NCBI RefSeq assembly: GCF_040869045.1
Contig: NC_090319.1
Location: forward strand, 394,335,601 to 394,399,600
Source: Eurosta solidaginis
Lineage: Eukaryota > Arthropoda > Insecta > Diptera > Tephritidae
Reading direction: 5' to 3'
DNA length: 64,000 nt
Shown: positions 15,184-48,353 of the stretch, one piece after another
Numbering within the stretch: the first letter of the stretch is position 1
Layout of the letters: each line of letters begins with the position of its first letter
Program-made: the position numbers and the translations under genes
The notes under the pieces: model-generated
Seen by the model: the letters and a program-made list of their open reading frames with translations, nothing else
Databases searched by the model: none
What the model was told of the DNA's origin: nothing

Positions 15184-15854
15184 TGTAACGAATTTACTTG
15201 CAAATCCTTTTATTTGCAATCCTCTGCTGAGTTCGAATCACTAAACTGTTGAATAAATAACTCCAATTTGTAATAATGCAAAATGGCCTTTATTAAAGTA
15301 CTTCACAATACTGTGCAACGAATAGCTTGCTTAATAACCACACTGATTGATAGCTCAATGAAACTCTACTATTCAAAATAATACTGCTATTGCTCGCTAG
15401 ATATCGTCTTAATCGCAACTGCTTGACAACTCAAATCAAACTGAATTACTTCTTACTCGCCTGCATCGCTTTTATAGTTTACGCTGCATACTTCTAGGCT
15501 CTTCGATTTCCAGAAGTTACTAGTTGTTTCGGCTACAAAATCGCCAGCCACAACTACGTGCACAAATTATTGCTCTCTCTTGTGACAACTCAGATAAGGT
15601 ATATGCATGTGTTTGTAGTTTACAGTCTCCCGCACACACATAAGCGTATAAGTAAATTCATCGGTGTGTGACATCTCATCTCTCGCTGTCTTGTATGTAA
15701 ATGTTGCTCGTCGGAATGTGTACATATGTGTAGACGCAATTATTGATTCGTTTATGTAGATACATAATGATTGAATTATTGATGTGCATTCACGTCACTG
15801 CTTAGATCGGCTTAGAGCTGGCAGCACTCCTTAGTTTTGCTAATATTCGTAACA
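15184..15854 (-). repeat. 3' LTR of the intact gypsy element
   Basis: On the plus strand it begins TGTAACGAATTT and ends AATATTCGTAACA, giving a short imperfect terminal inverted repeat. It is preceded (in minus sense) by a purine-rich tract. Two differences from the other LTR are visible, one near 15209 (T for C) and one near 15844 (A for T). Confidence 0.95.
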
Positions 15855-15867
15855 CTGCCCTCCACCT
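15855..15867 (-). other. Polypurine tract of the intact gypsy element
   Basis: The minus strand reads TAGGTGGAGGGCAG immediately before the LTR, the primer for plus-strand DNA synthesis. The pol stop codon overlaps its beginning. Confidence 0.7.
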
Positions 15868-18800: not shown

Positions 18801-19471
18801 GGTGACTTGAACTCATTGAGTACTCTTACCGGAATACGTCCATCTTGTTTTGTCATAGCCAGGGTTTTTCCTACAAGTATGTTTAGTGCTGATTTGTTTG
18901 CTGCTTCGACAACCCACAATTTGTTTGTCCCACAATCTCCATCAACCTTTGCCCAGATGACTGCTTCGGATTTTGGTGGTATTTGCTGACTCTCTTCCAC
19001 CAGCACTCGTTTACTGCTGTAGCCTCTCTCGTAGCCGAAATTAAGTGGTACATCCATGTTTTTATATCGCATCGTCTTGCTTTGCATGTCGATCTTGATG
19101 CCCTGGTCGGTTAAGAAGTCCACTCCAATTATGATTTCATCAACAATTTCTGCCACTATAAAATTGTGTACTACCATGACGTTCCCAATTGCGACTTCAC
19201 ATTCTACTTCTCCAATTACCTGGGTGTCCTCTCCCGTGGCTGTACGTAATCTTGCTCCAAGCAATGGTCTTATCTTTTTGTTGACTAAATCCGCTCGAAT
19301 GATGGAATGAGATGCACCCGTATCTACAGTCAATAACCGTTCCTTTCCGTCCACATGTCCTCCAACAGTAAGGTTGCTCGATCTTCTTCCAATCTGCGAG
19401 ATAGAGATTATGGGGTATTCAATTGCGGGAGCCAGCTGTCGCCCCTTGCGGCTGACTCGATTTAGTTTAAC
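15866..19471 (-). CDS. Pol polyprotein: protease, RT, RNase H, integrase
   Basis: This is the polyprotein that copies the element RNA and inserts the cDNA. Reading minus, the open frame is continuous from the GTTAAAC heptamer at 19471 to 15866, about 1200 codons. In order it has an aspartic protease (DTGASHS near 19325-19300), then reverse transcriptase with WSSPVVLVKKKDG, LDLKSGYWQ and the catalytic YLDD about 415 residues later. RNase H follows (ILDTDASGYA, RRELLALV). The integrase has an HHCC finger (HLGITKT to CEVCNRAKG), a DDE core (AMDVAGPF, HSDQGRNFE, HPQSDGMVERFNRT) and a C-terminal basic region. No ATG opens the frame near the protease; the first start-like codon is GTG at 19354. It is therefore most likely made as a Gag-Pol fusion by -1 frameshifting. 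All catalytic motifs look intact. Confidence 0.95.
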   Translation of the reverse strand, partial: VKLNRVSRKGRQLAPAIEYPIISISQIGRRSSNLTVGGHVDGKERLLTVDTGASHSIIRADLVNKKIRPLLGARLRTATGEDTQVIGEVECEVAIGNVMVVHNFIVAEIVDEIIIGVDFLTDQGIKIDMQSKTMRYKNMDVPLNFGYERGYSSKRVLVEESQQIPPKSEAVIWAKVDGDCGTNKLWVVEAANKSALNILVGKTLAMTKQDGRIPVRVLNEFKSPLKLTKGAILGRCQEAEVVINCEQLQEHVSPSNTDLSNNITAWMQGLEEAYQSKAKQLLLKYANIFDQDDSKPGRTNVVKHQIDTGDARPIRQAPRSVPLAKREVVSQIIQEMNDSGVIEPSASPWSSPVVLVKKKDGKMRFCVDYRKLNDVTKKDSYPLRRIDDTLDSLSGTKWFSTLDLKSGYWQVEVKEEDKEKTAFSVGDGLWQFTVMPFGLCNAPATFERLMDQVLKGLHWKTCLVYLDDIIVLGKNFDEHLKNLEEVFQRIAGAGLKLSPKKCALFKKEVNYLGHKVTTEGICTAKEKIEAVQDWPRPQNLHELRSFLGLCTYYRRFVPNFSSVAHSLHELTRKNKAFEWKKEQEVAFQTLKERLCTAPMLAYPIPGATFILDTDASGYAIGGVLSQLVDGQEKVVAYYSRSIGKPERNYCVTRRELLALVECIKHFHKYLYGQRFHVRTDHAALKWLLQFRNPEGQLARWIERLQSYDFSIEHRKGSTHGNADAMSRRPCSLECKHCSKAEAKEDIIDVRLITITCTDEWDKEQLRKCQLEDTDLSHVMQGLERNERPSREDMSAESPIAKSYWAQWNSLELISGCLHRVWESEDGQCKKKLIVVPRKRIPDVLSELHNGPSGGHLGITKTLEKIKQRFYWVGCRQSVTEWIANCEVCNRAKGPKTRSRGQMKQYISGAPFERIAMDVAGPFPTSNRGNKYVLVVMDYFSKWPEVYPIPNQEAETVAEVVKNEWVARYGVPMELHSDQGRNFESAVFQELCKKLGIRKTRTTALHPQSDGMVERFNRTLEEHLRKVVDKYHKDWDTHISLFLMAYRSAVHDTTGQTPAKVIFGNDLRLPADLKYGIDADAERNVKKSTDVLEEELREIHDLVRQRAKIMSDKMKARYDKAINSEGFQEGDLVLLYNPQRKKGLSPKLQCNWEGPYKVVKRINDVVYRIQTTTKPRTKMKVVHLERLAAFRSRDLSDRDDQT

Positions 19472-20898
19472 GATTGAATGGTCTTGGATATTTGCTCATC
19501 ACCTTCTGCTCTGCGTTTACGACCACCCACATTGTTGGAGCTATTGGGACCGCTGCTGCAATGTCGTGCAATATGACCTGGGTTGCCGCACTTGAAACAT
19601 TTAATAACTCCGGCATTTTTCTGTTGTGATCCCTTCAGTGCTTCCAAAATAGTGTCTACACAATCTGGTCTTTCCACTTCTACACGATGAGCTTTGTATG
19701 CTGGTTTACTCAATAGTGAGGCCGTTTCCTGAGTCAATGCATGTGATACCGTTTCAGAAAATGTCAGCTTTGGGTTTGCGTATGTAGCTCGCTTCGTTTC
19801 CACGTCCCGTATGCCATTTATGAAACTCTGGATTTTTACCCTTTCAGTGTATTCCACGGGTGCGTCCGCATTTGCAAGATGAGCCAATCTTTCAATATCT
19901 GAAGCAAACTCCTGCAATGTTTCATTTGCTTTTTGGCAGCGGTTTTGCAACTCAATTTGGAATATCTGTTTCCTATGCTCGCTTCCATAACGGCGTTCTA
20001 CAGCAGCCATCAATGCTTCATAATTGTTCCGCTCTCCTTCGGGAATCGTCTGTAGAATTTCCGCTGCTGGCCCCTTCAATGCCACGAATAGTGCAGCAAC
20101 TTTATCTTCCGAATTCCAGTTGTTCACTGCTGCGGTCTTCTCAAACTGTAGCTTAAAGACCTGGAAAGGAACAGAACCGTCAAAAGATGGGGTTTTTACC
20201 TTTGTATTGCTTGCTGAAACAGCTGGGCGGTTTAATTGCAACTCTTGTATACGACCTCTCAAAGCATCCACCTCGGCTTCGATTTTTTCCTCAAACTGCG
20301 TTATTTTCTCGTCCATACGTGCTTCGAGTTTTGATGATATACGCGCCTCTTGTGCTTCGAGTTGTACTGTTATGCGTGCCTCTTGTGCTTTCAGTTGTGT
20401 CTCCATTTTTGATGTAATCTGTGTCGACATTTCTGACATACGCGTTTCTTGTGCTTCAATCTTGGATGTTATGCGTGTCTCCTGCGATTCCAGTTGAGAT
20501 GACATTTGTGACGACATTTCTGAAATGCGTGCCTCCTGTGATTCCAGTTGGGATGCCATATATGTCTTCTGTTCTTCCATCTTCGATGTTAAACGTGTCT
20601 CCTGCGATTCCAGCTGAGATGCCACTGTCGATGTTTGAGCAGTTATTGCAGCCAATATCACGTTCAAGTCCGTGCTCGTAACTGTCTGCGATGTTTCGCC
20701 TTTCTCCTCAATTTTTGTCGTTGTTTCGTCCCCATCAGGATAAAAGACAAACTCGTCCACATCAATTCCTTGCGACTCCATTACCTCTCGTAGCCGTGCT
20801 TGAAGTTCGATCTTATTGCCGGTTGTATTTAATCCACGGTTCTCCAACTCCTTTTTCAGTTGCTGGATCTTCAATTCACTGAACTTTGCCATGTCCAA
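19462..20898 (-). CDS. Gag structural polyprotein
   Basis: 478 codons starting at an ATG. Residues of about 1-45 form a SAP-like helix-turn-helix (FSELKIQQLKKELENRGLN). Residues 85-230 form a long coiled coil of repeated units such as QLESQETRI and SKMEAQETR. A capsid-like helical part follows, and near the end is a CCHC zinc knuckle (CFKCGNPGHIARHC) for RNA binding, then a basic tail ending SLN and a TAA stop at 19462-19464. It would form the intracellular particle that packages the element RNA. The capsid and knuckle are standard for Ty3/gypsy; the repeat-rich coiled coil is longer than usual in my experience. Confidence 0.95.
   Translation of the reverse strand: MDMAKFSELKIQQLKKELENRGLNTTGNKIELQARLREVMESQGIDVDEFVFYPDGDETTTKIEEKGETSQTVTSTDLNVILAAITAQTSTVASQLESQETRLTSKMEEQKTYMASQLESQEARISEMSSQMSSQLESQETRITSKIEAQETRMSEMSTQITSKMETQLKAQEARITVQLEAQEARISSKLEARMDEKITQFEEKIEAEVDALRGRIQELQLNRPAVSASNTKVKTPSFDGSVPFQVFKLQFEKTAAVNNWNSEDKVAALFVALKGPAAEILQTIPEGERNNYEALMAAVERRYGSEHRKQIFQIELQNRCQKANETLQEFASDIERLAHLANADAPVEYTERVKIQSFINGIRDVETKRATYANPKLTFSETVSHALTQETASLLSKPAYKAHRVEVERPDCVDTILEALKGSQQKNAGVIKCFKCGNPGHIARHCSSGPNSSNNVGGRKRRAEGDEQISKTIQSLN
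19465..19471 (-). promoter_or_regulatory. Predicted -1 ribosomal frameshift heptamer GTTAAAC
   Basis: In gag frame the codons are TCG TTA AAC TAA. The heptamer G TTA AAC fits the X XXY YYZ slippery form in its relaxed version, and GUUAAAC is used by some nidoviruses. A -1 slip here reads GTT AAA CTA AAT CGA, exactly the open pol frame, and the gag stop follows the heptamer directly. The heptamer is also kept in the decayed copy at 92-98. A downstream pseudoknot was not modelled. Confidence 0.75.
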
Positions 20899-20934
20899 GT
20901 TGTATTCCCAATCTTTGGAATTTATTCAACAATT

Positions 20935-20949
20935 CCTCTTCTGACACCA
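20935..20949 (-). other. Primer-binding site of the intact gypsy element
   Basis: The minus strand reads TGGTGTCAGAAGAGG two bases inside the 5' LTR. It begins TGG as expected for pairing with a tRNA CCA end. I recall a very similar tRNA-Leu-type site in Mdg3/micropia-like elements. Confidence 0.65.
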
Positions 20950-21056
20950 ATTGTAACGAATTTACTTGCAAATCCTCTTATTTGCAATCCTCTGCTGAGT
21001 TCGAATCACTAAACTGTTGAATAAATAACTCCAATTTGTAATAATGCAAAATGGCC

Positions 21057-21062
21057 TTTATT
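21057..21062 (-). terminator. Polyadenylation signal AATAAA in the gypsy LTR
   Basis: AATAAA on the minus strand within TTTAATAAAGGCC, with the equivalent position in the 3' LTR at about 15289-15294. Confidence 0.55.
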
Positions 21063-21237
21063 AAAGTACTTCACAATACTGTGCAACGAATAGCTTGCTT
21101 AATAACCACACTGATTGATAGCTCAATGAAACTCTACTATTCAAAATAATACTGCTATTGCTCGCTAGATATCGTCTTAATCGCAACTGCTTGACAACTC
21201 AAATCAAACTGAATTACTTCTTACTCGCCTGCATCGC

Positions 21238-21244
21238 TTTTATA
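21238..21244 (-). promoter_or_regulatory. TATA box in the gypsy 5' LTR
   Basis: The minus strand reads CTATAAAAGCG. It is the only good TATA motif in the LTR located upstream of the AATAAA at 21057-21062, so transcription probably starts about 30 bp further on, near 21210. Confidence 0.6.
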
Positions 21245-21622
21245 GTTTACGCTGCATACTTCTAGGCTCTTCGATTTCCAGAAGTTACTAGTTGTTTCGG
21301 CTACAAAATCGCCAGCCACAACTACGTGCACAAATTATTGCTCTCTCTTGTGACAACTCAGATAAGGTATATGCATGTGTTTGTAGTTTACAGTCTCCCG
21401 CACACACATAAGCGTATAAGTAAATTCATCGGTGTGTGACATCTCATCTCTCGCTGTCTTGTATGTAAATGTTGCTCGTCGGAATGTGTACATATGTGTA
21501 GACGCAATTATTGATTCGTTTATGTAGATACATAATGATTGAATTATTGATGTGCATTCACGTCACTGCTTAGATCGGCTTAGAGCTGGCAGCACTCCTT
21601 AGTTTTGCTTATATTCGTAACA

Positions 21623-23330
21623 ATATGTTTGTACGATATGGGAATCAAATGAAAGGTGTTACTGAGCATTTTAAGAGGGACTGGGCATTAGGTCTATAGG
21701 TGGACGCCTTTTCAAAATGTCGCCATTAGGGTGGGCCAGGGGTGACTCTAGAATGTGTTTGTATGATATGGGTATCAAATGAAAGATGGTAATGAGTATT
21801 TTAAAAGGGAGTAATCCTTAGTTCTATAGGTGAACGCCTTTTCGAGAAATCGCCTTAAAGGTGGACCAGGGGTGACTCTAGAATATGTTTGTACGATATG
21901 GGAATCAAATGAAAGGTGGTAATGAGTATTTAAAAAGGGAGTAATCCTTAGTTCTATAGGTGAACGCCTTTTCGAGAAATCGCCATAAAGGTGGCCCAGG
22001 GGTGACTCTAGAATATGTTTGTACGATATGAGTATCAAATGAAAGGTGGTAATGAGCATTTTAAAAGGGAGTAATCCTTAGTTCTATAGGTGAACGCCTT
22101 TTCGAGAAATCGCCATAAAGGTGGACCAGGGGTGACTCTAGAATATGTTTGTACGATATGGGAATCAAATGAAAGGTGTTACTGAGCATTTTAAGAGGGA
22201 CTGGGCATTAGGTCTATAGGTGGACGCCTTTTCAAAATGTCGCCATTAGGGTGGGCCAGGGGTGACTCTAGAATGTGTTTGTATGATATGGGTATCAAAT
22301 GAAAGATGGTAATGAGTATTTTAAAAGGGAGTAATCCTTAGTTCTATAGGTGAACGCCTTTTCGAGAAATCGCCTTAAAGGTGGACCAGGGGTGACTCTA
22401 GAATATGTTTGTACGATATGGGTATTACTGAGCATTTTAAGAGGGACTGGGCATTAGGTCTATAGGTGGACGCCTTTTCGAGATATCGCCATTAGGGTGG
22501 GCCAGGGGTGACTCTAGAATGTTTGTACGATATGGGTATCAAACGAAAAGTGTTACTGAGCATTTTAAGAGGGAGTGGGCATTAGGTCTATAGGTGGACG
22601 CCTTTTCAAAATGTCGCCATTAGGGTGGGCCAGGGGTGACTCTAGAATGTTTGTACGATATGGGTATCAAACGAAAGGTGTTACTGAGCATTTTAAGAGG
22701 GAGTGCGCATTAGGTCTATAGGTGGACGCCTTTTCGAGATATCGCCATTAGGGTGGGCCAGGGGTGACTCTAGAATGTTTGTACGGTATGGGTATCAAAC
22801 GAAAGGTGTTACTAAGCATTTTAAGAGGGAGTGTGCATTAGGTCTATAGGTGGACGCCTTTTCGAGATATCGCCATTAGGGTGGGCCAGGGGTGACTCTA
22901 GAATGTTTGTACGGTATGGGTATCAAACGAAAGGTGTTACTGAGCATTTTAGGAGGGAGTGGGCATTAGGTCTATAGGTGGACGCCTTTTCGAGATATCG
23001 CCATAAAGGTGGACCAAGGGTGACTCTAGAATGTTTGTACTATATGGGTATCAAATGAAAGGTGTTACTGAGCATTTTAAGAGGGAGTGGGCATTAGGTC
23101 TATAGGTGGACGCCTTTTCGAGATATCGCCATTAGGGTGGGCCAGGGGTGACTCTAGAATGTTTGTACGATATGGGTATCAAACGAAAGGTGTTACTGAG
23201 CATTTTAAGAGGGAGTTGGCATTAGGTCTATAGGTGGACGCCTTTTCGAGATATCGCCATTAGGGTGGGCCAGGGGTGACTCTAGAATGTGTTTGTACGA
23301 TATGGATATCAAATTAAAGGTATTAATGAG
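21623..23330 (+). repeat. ~120-bp tandem array, right part
   Basis: The array continues after the gypsy element for about 14 units of 117-130 bp. Higher-order structure is visible: the stretch starting ATATGTTTGTACGATATGGGAATC at 21623 recurs at 22143, so a block of about 520 bp (four units) was duplicated. From 22500 the units are a subtype with GAATGTTTGTACG and ATCAAACGAAAGG. Confidence 0.9.
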
Positions 23331-24190
23331 GGTTTTAAAAGCGAGTGGCCCTTAGATGTATATGTGAAGGCGTTCTCGCGGTATCGACCAAAATGTGGAC
23401 CAGGTGATCCAGAAAATCATCTGTCGGGTACTGCTAATTTATTTATATATGCAATACCACTAACAGTATTCCTGCCAAGATTCCAAGGGCTGTTGATTTC
23501 GCCTTGTAGAACTTTTTCATTTTCTTCTACTTAATATGGTAGGTGTCACACCCATTTTACAAAGTTTTTTCCAAAGTTATATTTTGCGTCAATAAACCAA
23601 TCCAGTTACCATGTTTCATCCCTTTTTTCGTAGTTGGTATAGAATTATGGCATTTTTTTCATTTTTCGTAATTTTCGATATCGATAAAGTGGGCGTGGTT
23701 ATGGTCGGATTTCGGCCATTTTTTATACAAAGATAAAGTAAGTTCAGATAAGTACGTGGGCTGAGTTTAGTAAAGATATATTGGTTTTTGCTCAAGTTAT
23801 TGTGTTAACGGCCGAGCGGAAGGACAGCCGGTGGACTGTGTATAAAAACTGGGCGTCGCTTCCACCGATTTCGCCCATTTTCACAGAGAACAGTTACCGT
23901 CATAGAATCTATGCCCCTACCAAATTTGAGAAGGATTGGTAAATTTTTGTTCGACTTATGGCATTAAAAGTATTCTAGACAAACTAAATGAAAATGGGCG
24001 GAGCCACGCCCATTTTGAAATTTTCTTTTATTTTTGTATTTTGTTGCATCATGATGAATTGTTATCAACTTGAAAATATGAATCTGTAAGTTTTTGTATG
24101 TTCCTGGAGGCAAATGTGTTGTTGACATAAAAGGTAGTATACGTTTTCTTTTGGGATCTTCGAATTCTATTCGCATCAAAGATCATGGTA
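23331..24190 (+). repeat. Non-repetitive part of the 120-bp-array family
   Basis: This segment aligns inverted with about 56690-57310. It has GATCCAGAAAATCATCTGTCGGGTA, AATGGGCGGAGCCACGCCCATTTTG and TGTTAACGGCCGAGCGGAAGGACAG. It is non-coding and rich in CGCCCA-type motifs found in many dipteran dispersed repeats. The distal part present in the other copy (56044-56680) is missing or too diverged here, so this copy is truncated or rearranged near 24060-24190. Confidence 0.75.
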
Positions 24191-30525: not shown

Positions 30526-31129
30526 TTTATTTATTCAAAAGCTAAAATTATCATCATCATATACATATATTATTTCTGTAAGGTCTTTTTGTGTTATTTC
30601 CTAATTTTCTGCTCTCATTTGGAACCAATATTAATAAATAAGGTATCGTGTTAAAGGTGGGAGTTAGCTCTACATGCAAAACCATGTTTTAATTACCAGA
30701 GTGCTTTTGTTTAAGCGTATTTAATAAAAATAAATTATTTAAAATGAGCGATTGTGAATGCACAAAAAAATCAATTAGTACTGCAACGCTATTGTGACTG
30801 AACAATATTAGGCAGTGGTGAATATGGTGAATATCACCCACTGCGAGCGCGCTATCTACACGTGAAATTTGAAATGCGAAATTAAAGGCAGTAGTGAACC
30901 AACCCACTGGGAGCGCGCCATCAAGTTTTACACTTGAATATTGAAATTCAAACAGCTGTTTAGGCATATTTGTATAATGTTTTGTGGTCTCACAAGAGTA
31001 GCTGATTTTATTCGTAATTGAAAATCTTTTTTATACACCTGTCATAAAATACATAATTGGTAAGTTCTAAAATGTGCATTTTTACATGAATTACATGTGA
31101 ACACATTTTGTTCATATTGTTAGATTATA
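30526..31129. other. Spacer with a diverged local duplication
   Basis: 30811-30885 and 30886-30955 are related: both have GGCAGT(G/A)(G/T)TGAA, CCCACTG(C/G)GAGCGCGC(T/C)ATC and a TGAAATT-like end. No coding signal. The 5' part may belong to the Helitron that starts coding at 31130. Confidence 0.5.
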
Positions 31130-31815
31130 ATGCCTAGGGCCACCTTAAATCCTTCAACTGAGCGAAGAAGACGTCAAGAAGGTAGAAGAAGTCGACCAAG
31201 TCAGGAACGAAATATTCATCTAGCCCATGCAAGGCAAACAATGCGTAACCGCCGACAGGAACAAAGTGCTCAAATGGTAGTCCAGCGTAGGAGTGACTTG
31301 GTACCATCATATATTTTAAAGTTAAGCAGCGACACAAATTCTAGGAGAATACAGGAAAAGCTTCCAAAAACTTATTGTTGGGCACGCCTCGGAATCATTC
31401 AAGAACCACATAGCGTTGGACGTATGGATCAACAATGTATATTTTGTATGGCCAAACTATTTGCCAGTGAAGTTAGCGATAGAAGTTCTCCAATTTGTTG
31501 TCACAAAGGGAAGGTGAGTTTGCCAGAAATTTCTGTATGTGAAGAACTTAAAACTATAATCGAACGCAATGATTCTGTAACAAAAAACTATTTGGAAAAC
31601 GTAAGAAAATTTAACAACGCTCTAGCATTTGCATCAGTTCAAGTAAACTTTGTTAACATCCCTGGAAGAGGCCCCTTTTGTTTCAAGCTAAACGGTCAAG
31701 TATATCATAGAATTGGAGCTTTACAACCACCTGAGGGCGAAACACCCTCATATGTTGGCCTCTTTATTTTAGACAATGATGATGCTTTGCAGTATCGTGC
31801 GATTTCTTTAATTTG
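31130..31815 (+). pseudogene. Autonomous Helitron, N-terminal part of the Rep-helicase
   Basis: 228 codons with an ATG start. It opens with a very basic stretch (STERRRRQEGRRSRPSQER), then a Helitron-like N domain: CIFCMAKLFASE, ICCHKGKVSLPEI, NNALAFASVQ, PFCFKLNGQVYHRIGAL and YVGLFILDNDDA. This is the part that precedes the HUH Rep nuclease in Helitrons. It stops at 31814-31816. The HUH core and the middle of the protein are absent: one base out of frame, the sequence moves directly to helicase-linker codons at 31813. So this copy has lost more than a kilobase internally. Confidence 0.85.
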
Positions 31816-31887
31816 ATGCTGGAGAAAATTATACTAGCTGCAGAACATAACCGCACTGGAACAATCTAATATATATTATAAATGGGA

Positions 31888-31972
31888 AAGTTTGGATGTT
31901 AAGATGTTTGGATGTTTGGATGTTTAGATGTTTGGATGTTTGGATGTTTGGATGTTTGGATGTTTGTCCAGA
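31888..31972 (+). repeat. 8-bp minisatellite near the Helitron 5' end
   Basis: About nine copies of GATGTTTG with small variations (GATGTTAA, GATGTTTA) directly inside the 5' terminus, then TTTGTCCAGACGTTTGTC. Confidence 0.85.
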
Positions 31973-32149
31973 CGTTTGTCTTTGTGACTCAATAACGCAA
32001 GAACGGCTGGACCGATTTGGATGAAATTTTGCACACATATAGCCAATAGTCTAGAAGGATCTACTAGCTATATATTTTTCAAAAGGGGCGTGGTCCCCGC
32101 CCCCCAGGAACAGTTATAATTTAATTATTATATTTTTTCGTCTTTGCGA

Positions 32150-32200
32150 CTGAATCACGCCAGAATGGCTACACGGATTTTGATGAAATTTGGGACACAG
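32150..32200 (+). repeat. Second, diverged copy of the Helitron subterminal block
   Basis: GAATCACGCCAGAATGGCTAC followed by GATTTTGATGAAATTTGGGACAC repeats, with changes, the block at 31986-32037 (CAATAACGCAAGAACGGCTGG and GATGAAATTTTGCACAC). Confidence 0.6.
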
Positions 32201-32704
32201 ACAATAGTCTACTAGCGAAATTTTTTTCGAACATGGAAAGAGGGGTGGGGTCCCACGACCCCTTCTAGAAATTATTTTTCATAATTTTTACACATTATAA
32301 CTTTACGTATACTGGCCTTCACCAATATCACAGACTCAAGGTGTCAAATAAGTCGAGGGCTTACAAAGTAAGCAGTGACACCCTCCGCCCGCCCCCCTTT
32401 ATCTCCCCCTCTGGTGTAAAATCCATAAATTGTTATAACTCAATCTAAATTTTCTCCTAAATCAATAGTTTTTGGTATCTGGTACATAGAGAACGAGATC
32501 TAGACAATTTTGGAGGAACGATCAGTGGTCCTCTCCTCTACTTCCGCCATCCGCCCTCCATCAATTGTTTTTATTAGCACGCTTTTATTAGCTTTACCTG
32601 TATGTTTCTATCTAACTTTTTATTCGCTCCAATACGCCTGCTGCCTTATTAACATGGTTTTATAATTAGCTTCACCTTATTTGTAATCCCGTAAGGGTCA
32701 TATC

Positions 32705-35700
32705 GAGACCCTTCCGGGATCATTTCTGGATGGTTTTCGGGATCGGTCCGGGATTACGCCGGGGTAATTTGGGGACTTTTTCGGGACTATTTCGGGATCA
32801 TTTTGGGACCCTTCCGGGATCATTTCTGTATAGTTTACGGGATCCGTCCGGGATCCCGTCGGGGTTATTTTGGAACATTTTCGGGACTATTCCGGAATCA
32901 TTTCGGGACTATTTCGCGATCATTTGGGGACCCTTCCGGCATCATTTCTGGATGGTTTTCGGGATCCGTGCGGGATCTCGTCGGGGTCATATGGGGACTT
33001 TTTCGGGATCATTTGGGGGCTCTTCCGGCATCATTTCTGGATGGTTTTCGGGATCCGTCCGGGATATCGTCGGGGTCATTTGGGGACTTTTTCGGGATCA
33101 TTTGGGGGCTCTTCCGGCATCATTTCTGGATGGTTTTCGGGATCCGTCCGGGATCTCGTCGGGGTCATTTGGGGACTTTTTCGGGATCATTTTGGGGCTC
33201 ATCCGGCATCATTTCTGGATGTTTTTCGGGATCCGTCCGGGATCCCGTCGGGGTAATTTCGGGACTTTTTCGCGACTAATACGGGATCATTTGGGAACCA
33301 TTTCGGCATCATTTCTGGATGGTTTTCGGGATCCGTCCGGGATCCCGTCGGCGTCATTTCGGGACTTTTTCGCGACTAATACGGGATCATTTGGGAAGCC
33401 TTTCGGCATCATTTCTGGATGGTTTTCGGGATCCGTCCGGGATCCCATTAGGGTAATTTCGGGATTATTAGGGGATCATTTGGGAACCTTTCCGGCATCA
33501 TTTCTGGATAATTTTCGGGATCCGTCCGGGATGCCGACGAGGTCATTCCGGGACTATTTCGGGATCATTTGGGATACCTACCGGCATCATTTCTGGATGG
33601 TTTTTGGGATTCGTCCGGGATCCCGTCGTGGTCCTTTCGGGACTTTTTTTTCGACTAATACGGGATCATTTGCGGACCCTTTCGGCATCATTTCTGGATA
33701 GTTGTCGGGATCCCGTCACGGCCATTTCGGCACTATTAGGGGATTATTTGAGGACCTTTCCGGCATCATTTCTGTATTGTTTTCGGAATCCTTTCGGGAT
33801 CCCGTCAGGGTCATTTTGGGACTTTTTCGGGGCTAATACGGGATCATTTGGGGATCCTCTAGGGGTCGTTTCGTGACTTTTTCTGTTTTATTTCGGGATA
33901 ATTTGGGGACCCTTCCGGCATAATTTCTTGATGGTTTGGCGGATCCATCAGGGTCATTTCGGGACCATTTTATGATCATTTGGGGACCCTTCCGAGATCA
34001 TTTCTGGATCCGTCCGGGATGCCGTAGGAGCCATTTCGGGATTTTTTGTTACTTTTCCGGGATCATTTCTGGATATGTGCGGGATCCCATCTGGGTCATT
34101 TCCGGACTATTTCGGGATCATTTTGGGATCCTTCCGGAATCATTTCTGTATGGTTTTCGCGATCCGTCGTTGATTCCCTCGGAGCCATTTCGGAACCTTT
34201 TCTGGAGTATGTCGGGGTCATTTGGGGACTTTTTCGGGATCATTTGGGGCTCTTCCGGCATCATTTCTGGATGGTTTTCGGGATCCGTCCGGGATCCCAT
34301 CAGGGTAATTTCGGGACTATTAGGGGATCATTTGTGGACCTTTCCGGCATCATTTCTGGATAATTTTCGGTATCCGTCCGGGATGCCGACGAGGTCATTT
34401 CGGGATCATTTGGGATACCTACCGGCATCATTTCTGGATGGTTTTTGGGATTCGTCCGGGATCCCGTCCGGGTAATTTCGGGACTTTTTCTCGACTAATA
34501 CGGGATCATTTGCGGACCCTTCCGGCATAATTTCTGGATAGTTGTCGGGATCCGTTCGGGATCCCGTCACGGTCATTTCGGAACTATTAGGGGATCATTT
34601 GAGGACCTTTCCGGCATCATTTCTGGATTGTTTTTGGAATCCTTTCGGGATCCCGTCAGGGTCATTTCGGGGCTTTTTCGGTATCATTTAAGGATGGCTT
34701 TCAGGATTCGTCCGGGAACCCGTCAGGGTAATTTCTGGACTTTTCCGAGACTATTTCGGGATCATTTTGGGACCTTCCCAAGATCATTTCTGGATGGATT
34801 TCGGGATTTGTCCGGGATGCCCTCAGGGTCATTTTGGGACTATTAGTTGAGCATTTGAGGACCGTTCCGGCATCACTTCTGGATGGTTTTCGGTATCCGT
34901 TCAGATTTCCGTCGGAATAATTGCGGGACTTTTTCGGGATCATTGGGGTCCCTTCCGACATCATTTCTGGATGGTTTTTGGGATTCGTCCGGCATCCCTT
35001 CGGGGTCATTTCGGGACTTTTTTTCGACTAATACGGGATCATTTGCGGGCCCTTTCGGTATCATTTCTGGATAGTTGTCGGGATCCGTTCGGGATCCCGT
35101 CAGGGTCTTTTCGGAACAATTGGGAGATCATTTGAGGACCTTTCCGGCATCATTTCTGGTTAGTTTTCGGGATCCTTTCCGGGTCCCATCAGGGTCATTT
35201 CGGGACTTTCGGCATCATTTAAGATTGGTTTTCAGGATTCGTCCGGGATCCGTCAGGGTAATTTCTGGACTTTTCCCAGACTATTGACGGATAATTTTGG
35301 GACCCTCCCAAGATCATTTCTGGATGGATTTCGGGATCTGTCCGGGATGCCGTCAGGGTCATTTTGGGACTATTAGGTGATCATTTGAGGACCTTTTCGG
35401 CATCACTTCTGGATGGTTTTCGGTATCCGCTCAGGATCCCTTCGGAATTATTGCGGGACTTTTTCGGGATCATTTGGTGTCCCTTCCGGCATCATTTCTG
35501 GATGGTTTTTGGGATTCGTCCGGCATCCCGTCGGGTTCATTTCGGGACTTTTTCTCGACTAATACGGGATCATTTGCGGGCCCTTTCGGCATCATTTCTA
35601 GATAGTTGTCGGGATCCGTTCGGGATCCCGTCAGGGTGTTTTCGGAACTATTAGGTGATCATTTAAGGACATTTCCGGCATCATTTCTGAATAGTTTTCG

Positions 35701-37075
35701 GGATCCTTTCGGGGTCCAGTCAGGGTCATTTCGGGACTTTTTCGGGATCATTTAGAGATGGCTTTCAGGATTCGTCCGGGAACCCGTCAGGGTAATTTCT
35801 GAACTTTTCCGAGACTATTTCGGGATAATTTTGGGACCTTCCCAAGATCATTTCTGGATGGATTTTGGGATCAGTCCGGGATGCCGTCAGGGTCATTTTG
35901 CTATTAGGTGATCATTTGAGGACCTTTCCGGCATCACTTCTGGATGGTTTTCGGTATCCGATCAGGATCCCCTCGGGATCATTGCGGGACTTTTTCGGGA
36001 TCATTTGGGGTCCCTCCCAAGATCATTTCTAGATGGATTTCGGGATCTGTCCGGGATCCCGTCAGGGTTATTTAGGGGTGCGTTCGAGATCCCGTCAGGG
36101 TCATTTCGGGACTTCTTCGGGACTATATCGGGATCATTTCTGGATGGTTTATGGGATCCGTCCATGACCCCTTAAGGGTCATTTCGGGACTATTAGGTGA
36201 TCATTTGAGGACCTTTCCGGCATCACTTCTGGATGATTTTCGGTATCCGTTCGGGATCCCGTCGGAATCAATGCGGGACTTTTACGGAATCATTTGGGAT
36301 TCCTTCCGGCATCATTTCTGGATGGTTTTCGGGATTTGTCCGGGATACCGTCGGGGTTATTTCGGGACCTTTTCGGGGCTAATACGGGATCATTTGGGGA
36401 TCCTCTAGGGGTCGTTTCGTGACTTTTTCTGTATTATTTCGGGATCATTTTGGGACCCTTTCGGCATAATTTCTTGATGGTTTGCCGGATCCATTAGGGT
36501 CATTTCGGGACCATTTTGGGATCATTTGGGGACCCTTCCGAGATCATTTCTGGATCCGTCCGGGATGCCGTATTTCGGTATTTTTTGTTACTTTTCCGTG
36601 ATAGTTTTTGCACCCTTCCGGGATCATTTCTGGATCTGTGCGGGATCCCATCTGGGTCAATTCCGGACTATCTCGGGATCATTTGGGAATCCTTCCGGAA
36701 TCATTTCTGTATGGTTTTCGCGATCCATCGTGGATCCCCTCGGAGCCATTTCGGAACTTTTTCTGGAGTTAGTCGGGATAATTTAGGGACCCTTCCTGGA
36801 TATTTTCTGAATGGTTTTTGAGATCCGCCCGGGAGCCCGTCAGGGTCATTTCGGAACCTTTTCGGGATCATTTTGGAACACCTTCAGGGATCATTTCTGT
36901 GTGGTTCTCTGGATACTTCTAGAATCGTGTCGCTCTCATTTCGGGTTTTTTTGGGACTATTCGGGGAACTTTTGGAGACCCTTTCGGGGCATTTCTGGAT
37001 GGTTTTCGGGATCCGTCCGCGATAGCGTTGGCGTCATTTCGTAGCTTTTTCTGGATAATTTCGGGATCATTTGGG
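32705..37075 (+). repeat. ~4.4-kb tandem array of 89/100-bp units inside the Helitron
   Basis: Units carry GGCATCATTTCTGGATGGTTTT, CGGGATCCGTCCGGGATCCCGTC and CATTTCGGGACTTTTTCGGG. TTCTGG landmarks at 32946, 33035, 33124 and 33213 are 89 bp apart. At 33213, 33313 and 33413 the spacing is 100 bp, because a variant unit carries CGACTAATACGGGATC. That gives about 45-50 units. Units diverge by roughly 10-25%, so the array is not young throughout. It contrasts with the AT-rich surroundings by its GGGATC/GGATCC content. Long open frames here are by-products of stop-poor repeats. Confidence 0.92.
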
Positions 37076-37239
37076 ATCCTATCAGGTTATCAGCTCATTT
37101 AGTTCTTTTTTTTACTCAATTACAAAAATAAAATGCATTAGACAGAAAACAAAATTTTAAACAGATAATAAGCAGGCTAACGCGAATAGCCCATATATTT
37201 AAAATTTTCCTTGCGGACGGGGCCGCGGGTAAAGGCTAG

Positions 37240-37810
37240 TATACTATAAAAGCGTGCAATTACAGCCTAACATACTCTACAACGTTGAACAAGAACGTCA
37301 ACATGGACAAAAAGCTTTTAGCAAACTGAATCAAGAGCAAACGTCAATAGTGGAAGAAGTCTTGAGTTCGGTTAGAAATGAATCTCCAAACTGCTATTTT
37401 ATTGACGCACCAGGTGGTTCAGGAAAAACATTTATTTACAATACGCTATGTCACATCCTCCGAGGGGAAAATAAAGTGGTTTTACCAGTTGCATGGACAG
37501 GCATTGCTGCGAATCTGTTACCTAGGGGACGAACTTCACATGCTCTTTTTAAGCTACCTGTGCCTATTTTAGATACTTCAGTGTCATCTATGTGGCCAAA
37601 CTCAAAAGAGACACAGCTTTTACGCGAAGCAGATTTATTTATTTGGACGAAGTATCTATGGTACCTAAGGATGCAATAACCATTGTTGATAAGCTTTTGA
37701 AAGATATAACAAATGTGAATTTGCCATTTGGAGGAAAAATATTTGTATTTGGAGGTGATTTTTGAAGGAAACTTCAAATTTTGAGAAAAAGGTTTGAAAA
37801 ATCCTGGACC
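37240..37810 (+). pseudogene. Autonomous Helitron, Pif1-like helicase part
   Basis: This is the superfamily 1 helicase of a Helitron. It shows VQLQPNILYNV, then KLNQEQ, Walker A in FIDAPGGSGKTFIYNTL, then LPVAWTGIAANLLPRGRTSH and FKLPVPI. A one-base deletion near 37650 (TGGACGAAG) shifts the frame from LFIW. The next frame gives Walker B, DEVSMVPKDA, and motif III, FVFGGDF. It ends at a stop and decays (QILRK) by 37810; the C-terminal half is gone. The frame opens upstream at 31813-31864 on the other side of the inserted Helitron. Confidence 0.9.
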
Positions 37811-38565: not shown

Positions 38566-38756
38566 TATTAAAACCCGATTAAATAATAAAACGTTCCGAG
38601 TTATGTTTATGTAATTTAATAAAAGTAATTGAATTTGACATTTATGTTTAAAGAAAGAATAGAAAATAGAAATTCATATGCCGATTGTCGTGAGCTTATG
38701 CACGCTCGCACGTCTGCACTCTTCGAATGTTCACCCGTAACTAACTGTCTTTGACA
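38566..38756 (-). repeat. 3' LTR of the second gypsy element
   Basis: 191 bp, starting (minus sense) TGTCAAAGACAG and ending TTTTAATA. The unusual TA-type right end is supported by the CTTG duplication on both sides. Confidence 0.9.
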
Positions 38757-38783
38757 GCTCGGCCTTTCCTGACATTCGTCCTC

Positions 38784-41700
38784 CTAGGACGTCTCATCCT
38801 CGGTACTTTCGTTTGCTTCATTATAGTCGCCTTCGAGATCTGGACTTAAACGGCACCATGGTTTCATATGGTCGCTGGAGACTACATTACAGTATCTTCG
38901 TTGTGTACGTGGTGCGTCGGGTAGATCTTCCACAACGTATCGATCATGAACCAGCTGTTTTGTGACAATATAAGGCCCCTTGAATTTCGGATCGAGTTTG
39001 TGTGTGTCACCTGTTGCGGTTGGTACATGGTCAATAACGACCAATTGTCCTTCGTTGTATACTGGTGGACTCTGATGCTTTTGGTCGTATCTTTGCTTCC
39101 ATTTTTGCCTCTCGTTGCTGATATTCTGTATGGCGTTCTGTAGCTTCTCCTGTTTGTCGTCGTCATCTGACATGGATATTTCGTCGCTTAGTGCTTGTAT
39201 TAGTCGATTATCGCTGACGCATCGTAAATCGAAATTGAACACAAGTTCGTTGGGACTTATCTTTGTTGTGCTATTGTTTTGCGAGTTAATGCACCACTGG
39301 ATGTTGGAAAGGGTGCTGTCCCAATCTTTGGTGGTCTTTGTTGAGCATCGAATTGCTGATAATACGGTGCGGTTGACGCGCTCTGCCTGGCCGTTTGCTC
39401 GGGGCGTTCGTACAGCTGTTTTGACGTGCTGAATCCCAAAGCGTGTCATAAAGGATTCGAATTCCTTTGATGTAAAGGCAGTTCCTCGGTCAGTGGTAAT
39501 CCGTAAAGGCTGCCCGAAAATTGCCATAACTTCTTGCAGCATTGATAGGACTGGTGTCGTTTTTGTGTTACGTACCGCTTTCAATATCGTGTATTTGGTG
39601 AAACCACAAACTAAAACAATGACGTATTGGTTTCCTCGTTTGCTTTTGGTGAACGGTCCGAGATGATCCATATACATTGCTCGAAATGGAATTGGTAGAA
39701 CTTCGGTGAGATGCATTTGACTTTCCAGTTTGCCTCCTTTAATCTTATTTAAACAGCATTCGGGACAAGCTGCGATATAAGACTTTACGTATCGCCTCAT
39801 TTGCCTAAACCAAAAATACTTTTGCAGACGTTGTAATGTTTTCTCGACTCCAAAGTGGCCAGCGTCGTCATGACAAGATTTGGTGACACGCCACCTGATA
39901 GCCTGAGGAATAACTAGTCGTCGCTCATCTTGGACAATTCGATATAATCGACCGTTGTGAATGATGAAGTCATCCCGGAACTGAGATGCTCCATCGCCGT
40001 TTGTTTTCAAAGCTGTAACAATTGTTTTCACATGTTCATCCTGCATCTGCATTGTATAAATCCAGTCGTCGCTCTTTTCACTGGTTATAGCTAGAACTCT
40101 TTCAGCTACAGTCTCCGGCTCAGATGGAGGTAGGGTAGGCGAACGGCTTAAGCAGTCGACGTGCTGCATCTTCGAGCCTTGACGATGCCTACACTCAAAT
40201 TCATATTCTTGTAGGCGTAGCCACCATCTGGCTATACGTGGTGGTAATTTCGACGTTGCTTTTGTTGTCACGATCGCATTGCAGTCCGTAACTACGGTGA
40301 ACTTCGTGCCTAATAGATACATTCGGAATCTGTCTAGTGTTTCCACTATGGCTAGGACTTCTAATTCATGGCTTGCATAGCGTGACTCTGCATCATTGCA
40401 CTGACGGCTATAAAACGACACTGGTTTAAGACCATCAGCTTCCTCCTGCAGCAATATGCCTGACAAACCAAGGTGGCTGGCGTCCGTATGCACCTCATGT
40501 GATTTACTTGGATCGTACAAGACTAGTACTGGCTTAGACGTGATTGCTTGCTTTAGCTGGTCAAACGCTCTGTCTTGTTCTTCTGACCAAATGAAGACTG
40601 CGTCTTTCTTTAACAGCTTTGTTAGTGGTGCTGCGATGTGGCTATGCTTCTCTACAAACTTTCTGAAGAATCCGGTCAGTCCCAGAAACTGACGTACTTC
40701 TACGACATTCGATGGTTTGGGAAAATCGCTGATGCATTTCGTCTTGCCATTACCTGGACTTATGCCGGTGTCACCTACATTGTGACCTAGAAATTTGACG
40801 GTCTCGCAAAGGAAGTTACATTTGGAAGGTCTGAGTGTGAGACCATATTAACGTATCGCCTCCAAGACTTCTTTTAGCACGATCTTACCTTCGTCCACTG
40901 TTGGTGTTGCTATTATCATCTCATCGACGTAGCTGATGACTCGGTCTCGATTACATAATTTTGACGTTACTTTGGTGATCATTTCCTGGAAGTACATTGG
41001 GGCATTGACTAATCCGAATGGCATGACATTATATTCGACTAATCCATCATGAGTAAGGAAGGCAGTATATTTCTTGCTGCTTTCATCCATCGGAATCTGG
41101 TAATAGCCAGAGGTCATGTCCAATGTAGTGAAGAATTTCCCTCCAGCTAACTTAAAGAGTTGCTCTTCGACCACAGGCATTGGGAAGTTCTTACGTTCAG
41201 TGACGGCGTTCAGTGCCCTGTAATCGATGCACATTCGGCTCTCTCCGCTGGCTTTGCGTACTAAAAGTGCCGATGCAGCGTGTGGTGATGTACTTGGACG
41301 GATTATATCGTTGACCAATAAGTTGTTTAAAATTGACGTTAATTCTCGTTGTTGCGATAGTGGAACCTGATATCGTTTTCCGACTATTGGTCCCGACTGT
41401 GTCACTTTAATTTCCATAGTGGTAGTGTTACATCTTCCCAACGTTGACACATCTTCCGCAAAGCAATCTTCATACTCATGTAACATGGACTTTACATCGT
41501 TACGTTGTGTATCATTCAGCTGATCGTTGATTTTAAACATGTTCGATTTGACTTGTAACTGTAAAGACCCATTGTCGATGACCAGCCGTTTGTTGGCTCC
41601 GCACAAAATATCTCGTCCAAGTAGTAGGTCATACCCAAGTGTATTGCCCGGTACTACGTATAAGTTTGCGTGGACATTTTCGTTATTGATCATTAACTTT

Positions 41701-42944
41701 ACGTCGGCCTTTCGTGTAGATTCCACAGTTGAACCTCCGAAACCTTTAAAGCGCTTATATGCAGGGATGCATTGCGTCGTTGGTATTACTTGTTCGCTTA
41801 TTAGTGAGTGGTCGCTGCCTGTATCGACCAATGCGTCGTAAGATTTACCATCAATTGTGACGTGTTGAATTATAGGTGGCACTTGCGAAGGTTTTTTCGA
41901 CTCCACAATTTCTGCTACGTTTGGCTTGGTGTTTACTCGACATTCCTTGCTGTCATGGCCCACTTTCGAGCACTTAGAACAGCGTTGTTTCTTTTGTGGT
42001 TGCGGACATTTAACAGCGATATGTCCATGTTCATTGCAGTTGAAGCACTTCACTGATCTTTGCGATTGTTCAGAGCGTCCACTGCGCATGTTAGTGCTAA
42101 ACGTTGACGTTGGGTTTGGCTGTATCGAATTTGTTGACTGTACCGTTTGTAAGTTTTCTAGTGACTGTAGCAGCTCATTGCTTGTATTTAGATTCATTGC
42201 TAATAGCGTACGTGTTGTTTGTGGATCGCTTATACCATTGATCGTATAAAAGTTTATAGATGCGTCATCTAAATTACCCCGTCTTCCGAGCGTTAACATC
42301 TCGTAGTAATATTCAATCAATGTCTCGCCAGATTTTCGCTTGCGTCGGCCAAGTTCCCTGTGAATTTCCGCAGAATTTACTACACACGGAAAATCTTTCA
42401 ATAGCATACTCACCAAATCAGTCCAAGACTGGAACACCGGTTGAGCATCCAGCCAGCTTTTTGCTACGCCTACGAGCTTTTGTTGTGCCGCAAAAAGTAG
42501 CAAATTGTCACTCCATAAGTATGTTCGTTGCAGCTGCTCAGCCTTCGTTACAAATTGTTGTGCAGTGATTAATTTCTTCAACGGGTTAAACTCTGGTAAG
42601 ATTCCAACAATGTCTTGTATTTTGTACGTGGATGCCTGCTGTGTGGTCGATTGTACATTGGATTCTCGTACTGTTTCTTGGGATGTAACAGGTTCAACGG
42701 ATGGTCGTGATGCATTTTGCGTTTGCAATGACCTTGTTAATTCCGTGATCATATCCCTCAACTCACTGATTGGTCTTTCCCAAGGTTCTTCCTGATCGAT
42801 CTCATTGGCATCAATTTCATCAGACTCAAAATGTTGAATTAATGCCGCAACTTTGTGTGCTTTATTGCCTGTCGCTGAAATATTTGCGTTTCGCAATAGT
42901 TTATTTATTTGTGCCACGGTTAAAGATACTATTTTTATTTGCAT
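38784..42944 (-). pseudogene. Gag-Pol polyprotein with one in-frame stop
   Basis: From the ATG at 42944 a single frame of about 1385 codons encodes gag-pol, with one TAA at 40848-40850. Order: N-terminal SAP-like helices, gag helical region, two CCHC knuckles (CFNCNEHGHIAVKC and CSKCSKVGHDSKEC), protease (ALVDTGSDHSLI), RT (LDMTSGYYQIP, MPFGLVNAP). The active-site box reads YVDE (40920-40931) instead of YxDD. After the stop, RT continues with YGLTLRPSKCNFLC, then RNase H (EVHTDASHLG), integrase finger (HFGVEKTLQRLQKYF to CPECCLNK), DDE core (YMDHLGPF, TDRGTAFTS, PRANGQAERVNRT) and a basic tail. The stop probably arose from one substitution. The YVDE box should reduce or abolish polymerase activity. 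Confidence 0.92.
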
Positions 42945-43656
42945 GGTGACTTTTGCTTCAGTTTTTTCCCTTTATTTTACAAGCCGTTGCTTAAGCAATT
43001 AACTTTTGCTTCCTTTCGTCGCCGTTGCTTGCCAAAGACTGTCCGTTCATGTCGCTGTCTGCTTGCCACTCCAGTATTTTTCCACTTCGACCCCAAGCAA
43101 GCATGCCAACAACAACTTTCGTTTGTTTTCCCGTTAGGCAGAACAATTCTGCGTAGCGTCTGCTGCCGTTGTCCAATTCCTGTAAAGCTAGATCGCTGCG
43201 CCGTCTCTGCGTTAGCGTTGATTTGCGCCGTTTAAAACGTTGAGTAGTGTTTATGTGTATGTTCGCTTTACTGCTTCGTTTGCACCCGTAACGTTGATTG
43301 TCGTTGGCCTTTACACACATATACACATGTGACGTTGCCGCCTTGCCTTTAGCAGACTTAATTCGCTGAATTTTGCACTGTCTTTCGCTACAACAATAAC
43401 GTTGCTGTTTGCTGTGAAAGACTAGCCGTTGCCAGTGCCGTTTGAAATATTTTCCGTTGAGCCAAGTACGTTGCTCCTTTTGTTAAGCTTTTCGTTTTAA
43501 GTATTTCGTTTGAGCAGAGAACGTTGCTCTATTTTGGTACATACATCTGTACGCGTTGAGGAGAAACTTCGTTTTTGTACATTCGATAGGTAGACATATA
43601 TGTATGTACGTATGTCTAAAATATTTTGTAGGCCCGCGCGAATCCTACTTCTGAAC
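42945..43656 (-). promoter_or_regulatory. 5' leader of the second gypsy element, rich in CAACG
   Basis: A 712-bp untranslated leader between LTR and gag ATG. The pentamer CGTTG on the plus strand (CAACG in element sense) occurs about 15 times between 42985 and 43558, against less than one expected by chance. The same pentamer in the other orientation is essentially absent. It could serve RNA packaging, DNA binding or be a leftover of decayed short repeats. Confidence 0.55.
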
Positions 43657-43847
43657 TATTAAAACCCGATTAAATAATAAAACGTTCCGAGTTATGTTTA
43701 TGTAATTTAATAAAAGTAATTGAATTTGACATTTATGTTTAAAGAAAGAATAGAAAACAGAAATTCATATGCCGATTGTCGTGAGCTTATGCACGCTCGC
43801 ACGTCTGCACTCTTCGAATGTTCACCCGTAACTAACTGTCTTTGACA
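43657..43847 (-). repeat. 5' LTR of the second gypsy element
   Basis: 191 bp, identical to the other LTR except AACAG for AATAG near 43757. It is followed (minus sense) by GTTCAGAAGTAGGATTCG, presumably the primer-binding site, though I cannot name the tRNA. Confidence 0.9.
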
Positions 43848-47906: not shown

Positions 47907-48286
47907 TGTCGCTGAATCAAACCAAGATTTTATATTACCTTAAACATTGTAAACATGACATAATAACTTGACAGTTTAAACTTCATTTTATTTAATTTCA
48001 TAAGTATGGCATCCTTTTATTATACATATAAATTTTCGTTAAACACGAAATTGAACGAAGCGTTTCTTCATAATATCTAAATCGCTTCCTTCAACTTCAT
48101 TTTATAGAAAAACCTTCGAGGAAATTAAACGAACAAGTAAGAATCTTGTTACAAAATTTTTAATTTAATCATTTACTTATTATAACTATCTTGTAGATAT
48201 TAAAACTTGCACAGTAAGACTGAATAAACACTGTCATGTTAAAATATTAGTTGTGTTTCCTTGAAGCGTTAGTTGCAGCGATAACA
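47907..48286 (+). repeat. 5' LTR of the BEL element
   Basis: Starts TGTCGCTGAATC and ends GCGATAACA. TATAAA lies at 48027-48032 and AATAAA at 48223-48228, a sensible U3-R-U5 order. Confidence 0.95.
48027..48032 (+). promoter_or_regulatory. Candidate TATA box in the BEL LTR
   Basis: TATAAA in the context ACATATAAATTTTCG, about 190 bp upstream of AATAAA. AT-rich surroundings make this moderate evidence only. Confidence 0.45.
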
Positions 48287-48353
48287 TTTTTTAATATTTG
48301 TTCTGAGACAAATCCGCAAACTATAATTACAGCGTGGAATCACATGAATACTC

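Follow-up and report, generated by a model that had tools for sequence, protein, structure and literature searches.

The Helitron at the locus

The stretch of DNA that we analysed (hereafter the window: 64 kb of the Eurosta solidaginis genome, C1:394,335,601-394,399,600) contains, at positions 31865-37239 of its plus strand, a non-autonomous Helitron of 5,375 bp, of the form A|TC...CTAG|T and without target duplication, which was delimited by reading the sequence and from its matches to other copies. It is made of two constant arms and, between them, a satellite-like array of about 4.4 kb. The family to which the element belongs is non-autonomous, of the canonical Helitron kind and very abundant, and many of its copies lie head to tail in clusters; their junctions fall mostly at two positions of the family's own 5' end, these positions match its target preference, and short remnants of 5' ends, or stubs, are stacked upstream of many copies. 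We consider it very probable that the whole is explained by the self-targeted, head-to-tail stacking of a satellite-carrying Helitron.

An earlier note on this DNA had proposed that the element is a Helitron with satellite-like cargo, beginning at a TC that follows an A and ending with a CTAG that precedes a T. These ends are indeed read at 31865 and 37239, and identity, exact ends and cargo are all supported. The CTAG (37236-37239) is the sole CTRR preceding a T within 36950-37800; on the 5' side there are five A|TC sites within 31700-32300. The borders are supported by other copies, since in several of them the blastn matches begin at base 1 of the element and extend to the last base of the right arm. 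The 5' terminus (TCTAATATATATTATAAATGG, 31865-31885, plus strand) holds the self-insertion sites of the family, 31871|31872 and 31869|31870.

The arms were compared by blastn with six clusters of the family examined whole or nearly so (A to F, 4 to 10 copies each). All six, like the flanks sampled below apart from that of the window copy, lie within the first 26.2 Mb of a single chromosome. The left arm (31865-32690, plus strand, 826 bp as query) contains a (GTTTGGAT)n microsatellite of 9.6 copies (31890-31966, plus strand) and a two-fold imperfect repeat (31975-32290, plus strand, 67% over 168 columns). Its main matches are 85.3-98.4% identical, and some begin only at base 50-82 because the microsatellite varies. 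The right arm (37091-37239, plus strand, 149 bp) has 31 matches with 85.1-100% identity, 28 of which span all 149 bp.

The TC and CTAG ends are a feature of canonical Helitrons (Helitron1) and are conserved in other copies. A short GC stem, which the earlier note had also announced, is present as a hairpin, GCGG-6-CCGC, 9 nt upstream of CTAG (37213-37226, plus strand), but it is weak: the stem is 4 bp long with a bulged extension, and it folds no better than shuffled sequences (z-score 0.28). The 3' palindrome of canonical Helitrons is given as 16-20 nt, about 11 bp from the end (PMC4067079). The element could instead belong to the Helentron/HINE (DINE-1-like) class, as it shares with HINE the layout of a left-arm microsatellite followed by central tandem repeats (PMC7492417, PMC4067079). 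We find this very unlikely, considering the TC and CTAG ends and the insertion between A and T. Sub-terminal inverted repeats of 12-15 bp, a Helentron/HINE trait, were looked for between the first 120 and the last 160 bases, where the longest exact inverted match is 7 bp; nor are the insertion sites of the TT or oligo-T type, being A|T with ATAWA downstream.

The insertion site and the outer layers

The left half of the target (31793-31864, plus strand) is a 72-bp fragment of a non-LTR (long terminal repeat) reverse transcriptase, 86% identical to a flank in cluster D, and this fragment resumes in the right half (37240-37265, plus strand, right limit approximate) with the residues IYYKSVQL. 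Outside it lie the remnants of another Helitron: a 230-residue remnant of its N-terminal open reading frame (ORF) at 31124-31816 (plus strand), and that of its PIF1 helicase at 37266-37676 (plus strand), whose left limit is approximate and which is followed through a frame shift near 37640 to a stop near 37765. Among the relatives of the N-terminal ORF are Rhagoletis zephyria LOC108373502 and proteins of Araneus that bear the name Helitron helicase-like domain. Its best named relative is a Rhagoletis zephyria protein (58% over 71%).

The earlier note had placed the insertion inside the helicase gene of the outer Helitron, on the ground that removing the element restores an open helicase-linker frame. 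The codons restored across the site read HNRTG, TIYYKSVQL, so that the logic used to fix the borders stands; the assignment of these codons to a helicase linker does not. In cluster D (C1:26.14-26.19 Mb), a homologous stretch bears a reverse-transcriptase-like frame, GFRQGDPLSCDFFN...LLAYADYIDIIG, and is interrupted at the same site as in the window, within a base or two, the terminal G of the cluster D copy being changed. We take the frame of this host, RQGDPLSCDFFNSLLEKIM...SGK|IFYKNVKLLAYADYIDIIG, to be a reverse transcriptase from its motifs. Pfam returned RVT_1 for the cluster D host below its cut-off only (E 0.048), and nothing for the downstream pieces of that host or for the 30-residue stretch in the window. 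A search of the PDB gave eight chains (E 0.0054-0.74 and 0.97), and the names of all eight are those of reverse transcriptases or retrotransposons (LINE-1 ORF2, R2 retrotransposon protein, reverse transcriptase-like or RNA-directed DNA polymerase).

A protein search with the joined flanks gave 13 matches, all with PIF1. The relative whose clear similarity reaches furthest upstream (P0002) matches from about YN onward and not over HNRTG...YYKS, as would be expected if that stretch is a reverse transcriptase fragment. The helicase linker was therefore rejected as the gene at the site, since the homologous frame in cluster D looks like that of a non-LTR reverse transcriptase and PIF1 coding resumes at about 37266. 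As read from these comparisons, the locus appears to be built of three layers, namely a Helitron remnant, a retrotransposon fragment within it and then the present Helitron.

The satellite-like array

The array (32686-37090, plus strand) is GC-richer than the arms and consists of about 50 degenerate units in a single orientation. Its strongest periodicities are at lags of 89, 100, 11, 22, 178 and 78 bp, which indicates unit sizes of 78, 89 and 100 bp, each step in size being one 11-bp module. A profile of a single unit detects 51 units at E<=1 and 47 at E<=1e-3, in agreement with the 45-50 units of the earlier note. Part of the array (34398-36077, plus strand) has a higher-order structure, where a block of about 530 bp is repeated at about 90% identity from 34398, 34932 and 35462. 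Compared with the rows of period 89, which match at 63-81%, this similarity suggests that the array grew by multi-unit blocks and was not freshly homogenised. A 343-codon open frame runs across the array (32670-33698); it is probably a by-product of the 11-bp module, which is mostly stop-free, and it gave no match among 7,988 scored protein candidates at E<=1e-3 and none in Pfam.

The window copy is 97.4-98.0% identical to six copies elsewhere over 5.06-5.37 kb, array included, and the gaps in these six alignments measure 20-32, 89, 100, 112, 155, 175, 178 and 465 bp, many of them near the unit size. Similar observations were made within clusters: three comparisons in cluster E (99.6-99.7% identity) have one gap of 388, two gaps of 35 and 978, and no gap, respectively, and the alignment of B1 with B4 has a single gap of 22. 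The exception among the pairs compared is C2 with C5, which align poorly (85%, many gaps). That the arrays are collinear at 97.4-98.0% with few indels suggests that they mostly move unchanged and are altered by the gain or loss of blocks; the idea that the array expands at each copying finds no support here.

Inside the elements of the window and the six clusters, all 1,251 unit matches (1,251/1,251) have the plus orientation. A further 76 in cluster E, plus among the matches listed, lie within a copy whose start was beyond the stretch examined. In this 5'-most copy of cluster E (L048, C1:25.98 Mb), the array is about 6.6 kb or longer. No unit match falls outside the elements in the window and in five clusters, so that in these the array does not occur without adjoining ends. 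The earlier note had also supposed that the element could seed free satellite arrays: none was seen in the stretches examined, and a genome-wide search for free arrays was not made. On these grounds the array appears to travel as cargo between constant arms.

Copy number of the family

The family was counted on both strands of the 1.908-Gb assembly, in which C1 measures 396.9 Mb. A 30-mer from the 3' end, searched with up to 3 mismatches, occurs at 7,434 places (3,733+3,701), and a 35-mer from the intact 5' end, searched with the same tolerance, at 3,432 (1,762+1,670); the reversed control pattern gave 0 in both cases. The junction CTAG|TATATTATAAATGG, in which a 3' end is followed directly by a truncated 5' end, is found 2,121 times genome-wide (1,070+1,051; control 0).

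Thirty bodies measured in the six clusters are 2,188-6,174 bp long (mean 4,590 bp), so that copies which share these ends but vary in array length, as sought by the earlier note, do exist. In 30/30 bodies the first array motif is found 593-878 bp past the start of the 5' tail; from the last motif to the 3' end the distance is 158-217 bp in 26/30 and 380-536 bp in the other four. If the mean of these bodies, all of them from clusters, is multiplied by 7,434, the family would represent about 34 Mb, or 1.8% of the genome.

One could object that TC and CTAG are short motifs, and that the array is a genomic satellite which they flank by chance, there being no mobile unit at all. This is practically inconceivable: the absence of other loci with these ends would have spoken for it, and thousands were found, with no match to the control; moreover, the collinear copies described above are whole elements with both ends the same, and we rejected the idea on these two grounds. 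Within the window itself no other copy was detected at E<=1e-5, which indicates one copy per this 64 kb only. Of four pattern scans of viral contigs, three gave 0 matches and the fourth a single match that reads as chance.

Clusters, junctions and target preference

The first 100 3' ends listed form 99 neighbouring pairs, 55 of which are within 12 kb of each other, with a median spacing of 5,012 bp. In 54 of these 55 pairs both ends are on the same strand, whereas beyond 12 kb the strands are mixed (24/44 same).

We sampled 51 3' flanks, that is, those of 50 of the first 54 listed places (the four of cluster F being left out) and that of the window copy. Twenty-six continue into the element's own 5' tail and 25 do not. 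Of the 26 self-junctions, 12 resume at TATATTATAAATGG (TATATT), 11 at TATATATTATAAATGG, and 3 at the A|TC border or inside a stub stack. The remainders at 23 of the 26 junctions are those expected if a newcomer enters a resident copy at TCTAATA|TATATT or at TCTAA|TATATATT.

The 25 non-self flanks all start with T, although T was required by the search pattern. ATAWA is present at +6 to +9 in 21 of them, against 2.7% of the 10,347 A|T sites of the window. When a site matrix derived from these 25 non-self insertions only is applied to the 524 A|T sites of the element, base 7 comes 1st and base 5 comes 4th. The adjacent A|T sites score -0.99 (base 9) and -7.23 (base 11), and none of the 26 self-junctions sampled falls at one of these two.

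Sites in other transposons also recur. A second satellite-bearing element was hit at one and the same site by two independent insertions (L070/L086 and L071/L087), and that site is unoccupied twice in the window (23429, plus strand, and 57304, minus strand). Comparison of empty and filled sites reveals flush joins, with no duplication and no loss, as expected for insertion between A and T. Taken with the reverse transcriptase site that is occupied both in cluster D and in the window, these insertions suggest that other transposons, too, are hit repeatedly as a result of the preference.

The mechanism that we propose is as follows. The family inserts between an A and a T and strongly favours sites that have ATAWA 6-9 bases downstream, and its own 5' terminus happens to be an excellent target, as a result of which newcomers would enter the 5' ends of residents again and again, always in the orientation of the resident. 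Each event would leave a TCTAA or TCTAATA stub upstream, the oldest being outermost, and would join the CTAG of the newcomer to the truncated 5' end of the resident. Repetition would lead to head-to-tail clusters of units of about 5 kb, a satellite of transposons each of which holds a satellite, and the stack of stubs would be a partial written record of the insertions. The element itself is presumably moved by a RepHel protein from an autonomous relative, and we infer that the stacking is due to self-targeting and not to local insertion by chance.

Stub stacks and the origin of the clusters

Thirteen of the 20 intact 5' ends sampled are preceded by one to six TCTAA or TCTAATA stubs. At 16 loci, the stubs were compared with the junctions of the same locus, the expected junctions having been entered by hand from the lists of 3' ends, the flanks and the cluster alignments. 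At 10 of the 16 loci there are as many stubs as junctions, of the same types and in the same order, against a mean of 2.5 in 100,000 shuffles (P 1e-5); these ten include four single copies without stubs and the locus at C1:1.85-1.87 Mb (TCTAATA then TCTAA). The stubs are at least as numerous as the junctions at 16/16 loci. The comparison covered loci with known 3' flanks and copy sets, which excluded L078, L081, L082 and L089-L093. The left end of cluster D, where the stubs are irregular and some joins are at A|TC, was also left out, as were those of clusters A (unparsed) and E (start beyond the stretch). A copy may be hidden where the 5' end is far from the first listed 3' end, as in L086 (10.5 kb) and L076 (8.4 kb). 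In cluster C (L041-L042, C1:12.06 Mb), a second stack, with five stubs and one junction, follows a copy without detected 3' end.

Head-to-tail order would also result if the clusters were rolling-circle concatemers, in which a single event reads past the 3' end and inserts several joined copies. The tandem Helitrons of bat and plants have been explained in this way (PMC2267711, PMC12628747), and the copies of cluster E, which differ by 0.1-0.6%, agree with it. An exact join of complete ends is, however, not what is seen, since in 23/26 joins exactly 5 or 7 bases are missing from the start of the 5' end, both positions being A|T sites, and since upstream stubs of just those bases match the junctions at the ten loci mentioned above. 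Moreover, copies differ by 3.4-10.9% in cluster A, 0.6-10.8% in B and 4.0-12.0% in D. The mean left-arm divergence within these three clusters (7.0, 5.7 and 8.4%, respectively) is as large as that between clusters (5.6%), unlike what is expected of the units of a single concatemer; in cluster F the mean is 2.9% (range 2.3-3.7%). These figures leave out the truncated copy A18.14_5, without which divergence is 6.2% within clusters (79 pairs, 45 from cluster D) and 5.6% between them (417 pairs); when all 33 copies are counted, the values are 7.4 and 7.2%. Judging from their arms, the copies in A, B, D and F do not seem to stem from a single template, and we consider concatemers unlikely as the general explanation.

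The clusters may otherwise have been amplified, after an initial self-insertion, by unequal crossing-over between a few neighbours. To this we give a somewhat better chance than to concatemers, while still finding it improbable: clusters E (0.1-0.6%) and C (0.3-2.0%) are tight, and 15/33 copies have their nearest relative in their own cluster, but the copies of A and D are 3.4-12.0% apart and those of F 2.3-3.7%, and unequal crossing-over would add no matching stubs at the 5' edge.

Self-targeted stacking remains the explanation that we prefer, and several observations weigh against it. Clusters E and C have mean divergences of only 0.4 and 1.4%, and the number of copies whose nearest relative is in the same cluster compares with 5.2 by shuffling, which suggests that some local duplication or local jumping also occurs; clusters C and E are thus compatible with local jumping, with unequal exchange or with concatemers. 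The expected order of ages was not recovered, as the 3'-ward copies, which should be older, are more diverged in 29 pairs and not in 49 (A18.14_5 being dropped), an outcome that is confounded by subfamilies of unknown age. Stubs outnumber junctions at 6/16 loci, and the excess would need lost copies, slippage in runs of TCTAA, or the re-use of the TC of a stub as a 5' end; nicking by the transposase at the outermost TC, so that stubs are carried along, has been proposed for the multiple 5' ends of Fusarium Helitrons (PMC5148889). The 3' hairpin is weak, as noted above. No autonomous partner was identified, and no search aimed at one was made. Last, the sampling covers the beginning of one chromosome and the window, and counting by exact 3' ends may miss copies whose 3' ends have changed.

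All in all, we lean towards the idea that the family grows largely by landing in itself, and that this produces thousands of stacks, with their ordered log of stubs, and megasatellite-like blocks, mainly without unequal exchange or concatemers.

Other elements in the window

The second satellite-bearing element has units of 128/130 bp and is present in two copies, of about 23 and 4 units, one at 13892-15183 and 21622-24052 (plus strand) and the other at 56671-58061 (minus strand). Both copies have common flanks starting near AACAAGTAAGGAAGGCTAAGTTCGGGTGTAACC, and each holds the unoccupied site that is hit elsewhere by two Helitron copies. Inside the 128-bp array lies an LTR element (15182-21622) with 673-bp repeats that are 99.7% identical and a long pol-like ORF on the minus strand. 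A probable LTR element at 47907-54496 has two long ORFs (48348-51011 and 50957-54151) and 382-bp repeats that are 100% identical, which suggests that it is very young; another, at 38566-43847 (minus strand), has 191-bp repeats with 99.5% identity.

Comparison with known systems

Central arrays of satellite-like repeats are well known in rolling-circle elements (PMC7492417, PMC4595182, PMC4067079 and a 2025 review, PMC12628747). Cg_HINE of the Pacific oyster (PMC7492417) resembles the present family in that it is non-autonomous, its flanks are constant, the left one holds a microsatellite, the central satellite-like array has one orientation, and no target duplication is made. It differs in that it is of the Helentron class, inserts in oligo-T and has sub-terminal inverted repeats, and in its units, mostly of 140-180 bp, in arrays mostly of up to 5 monomers, the longest having about 29; the present family has TC and CTAG ends, A|T targets, about 50 units and head-to-tail stacks with stubs. 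DINE-1 and HINE elements (PMC4067079) likewise combine a microsatellite with central repeats, and differ by their sub-terminal inverted repeats and TT targets, neither of which was found in the present element.

The Helitrons of C. elegans also carry and spread satellite families (PMC4595182); these are short-repeat families, and stacking is not described in the accessible text. Hel-2, from Lepidoptera and insect viruses (PMC4344730), is non-autonomous, starts with TC, ends with CTAG, is flanked by A and T, and has a microsatellite near its 5' end and internal tandem repeat arrays. Its consensus measures about 250 bp and its microsatellite is (CTGT)n; no multi-kb array is described in the part of that paper available. 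The cargo of the present family is thus of an ordinary, known kind, while the self-targeted stacking and its record are new: in the open-licence literature, as far as its accessible parts go, we found neither stub stacks reported nor a 5' end described as fitting the target preference of its own family.

Head-to-tail pairs of Helitrons have been debated in maize and bat (PMC2267711). In earlier head-to-tail cases, including FoHeli (PMC5148889), insertion at the A|T of a resident's 5' end, or in its 5' end, was weighed against rolling-circle tandems, and extra 5' ends on a single element were attributed to self-insertion. In the accessible texts these cases are few and were explained either as rolling-circle tandems or as consecutive insertions, the order of events not being settled. 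In the present family, consecutive self-insertion is favoured by thousands of junctions, by stub stacks that match them and by a target preference that was derived without them, and the order of insertion can often be read from the sequence. This suggests, in concrete terms, how a dispersed transposon could turn into satellite-like blocks, and it yields for a family of animal Helitrons a target preference that can be tested.

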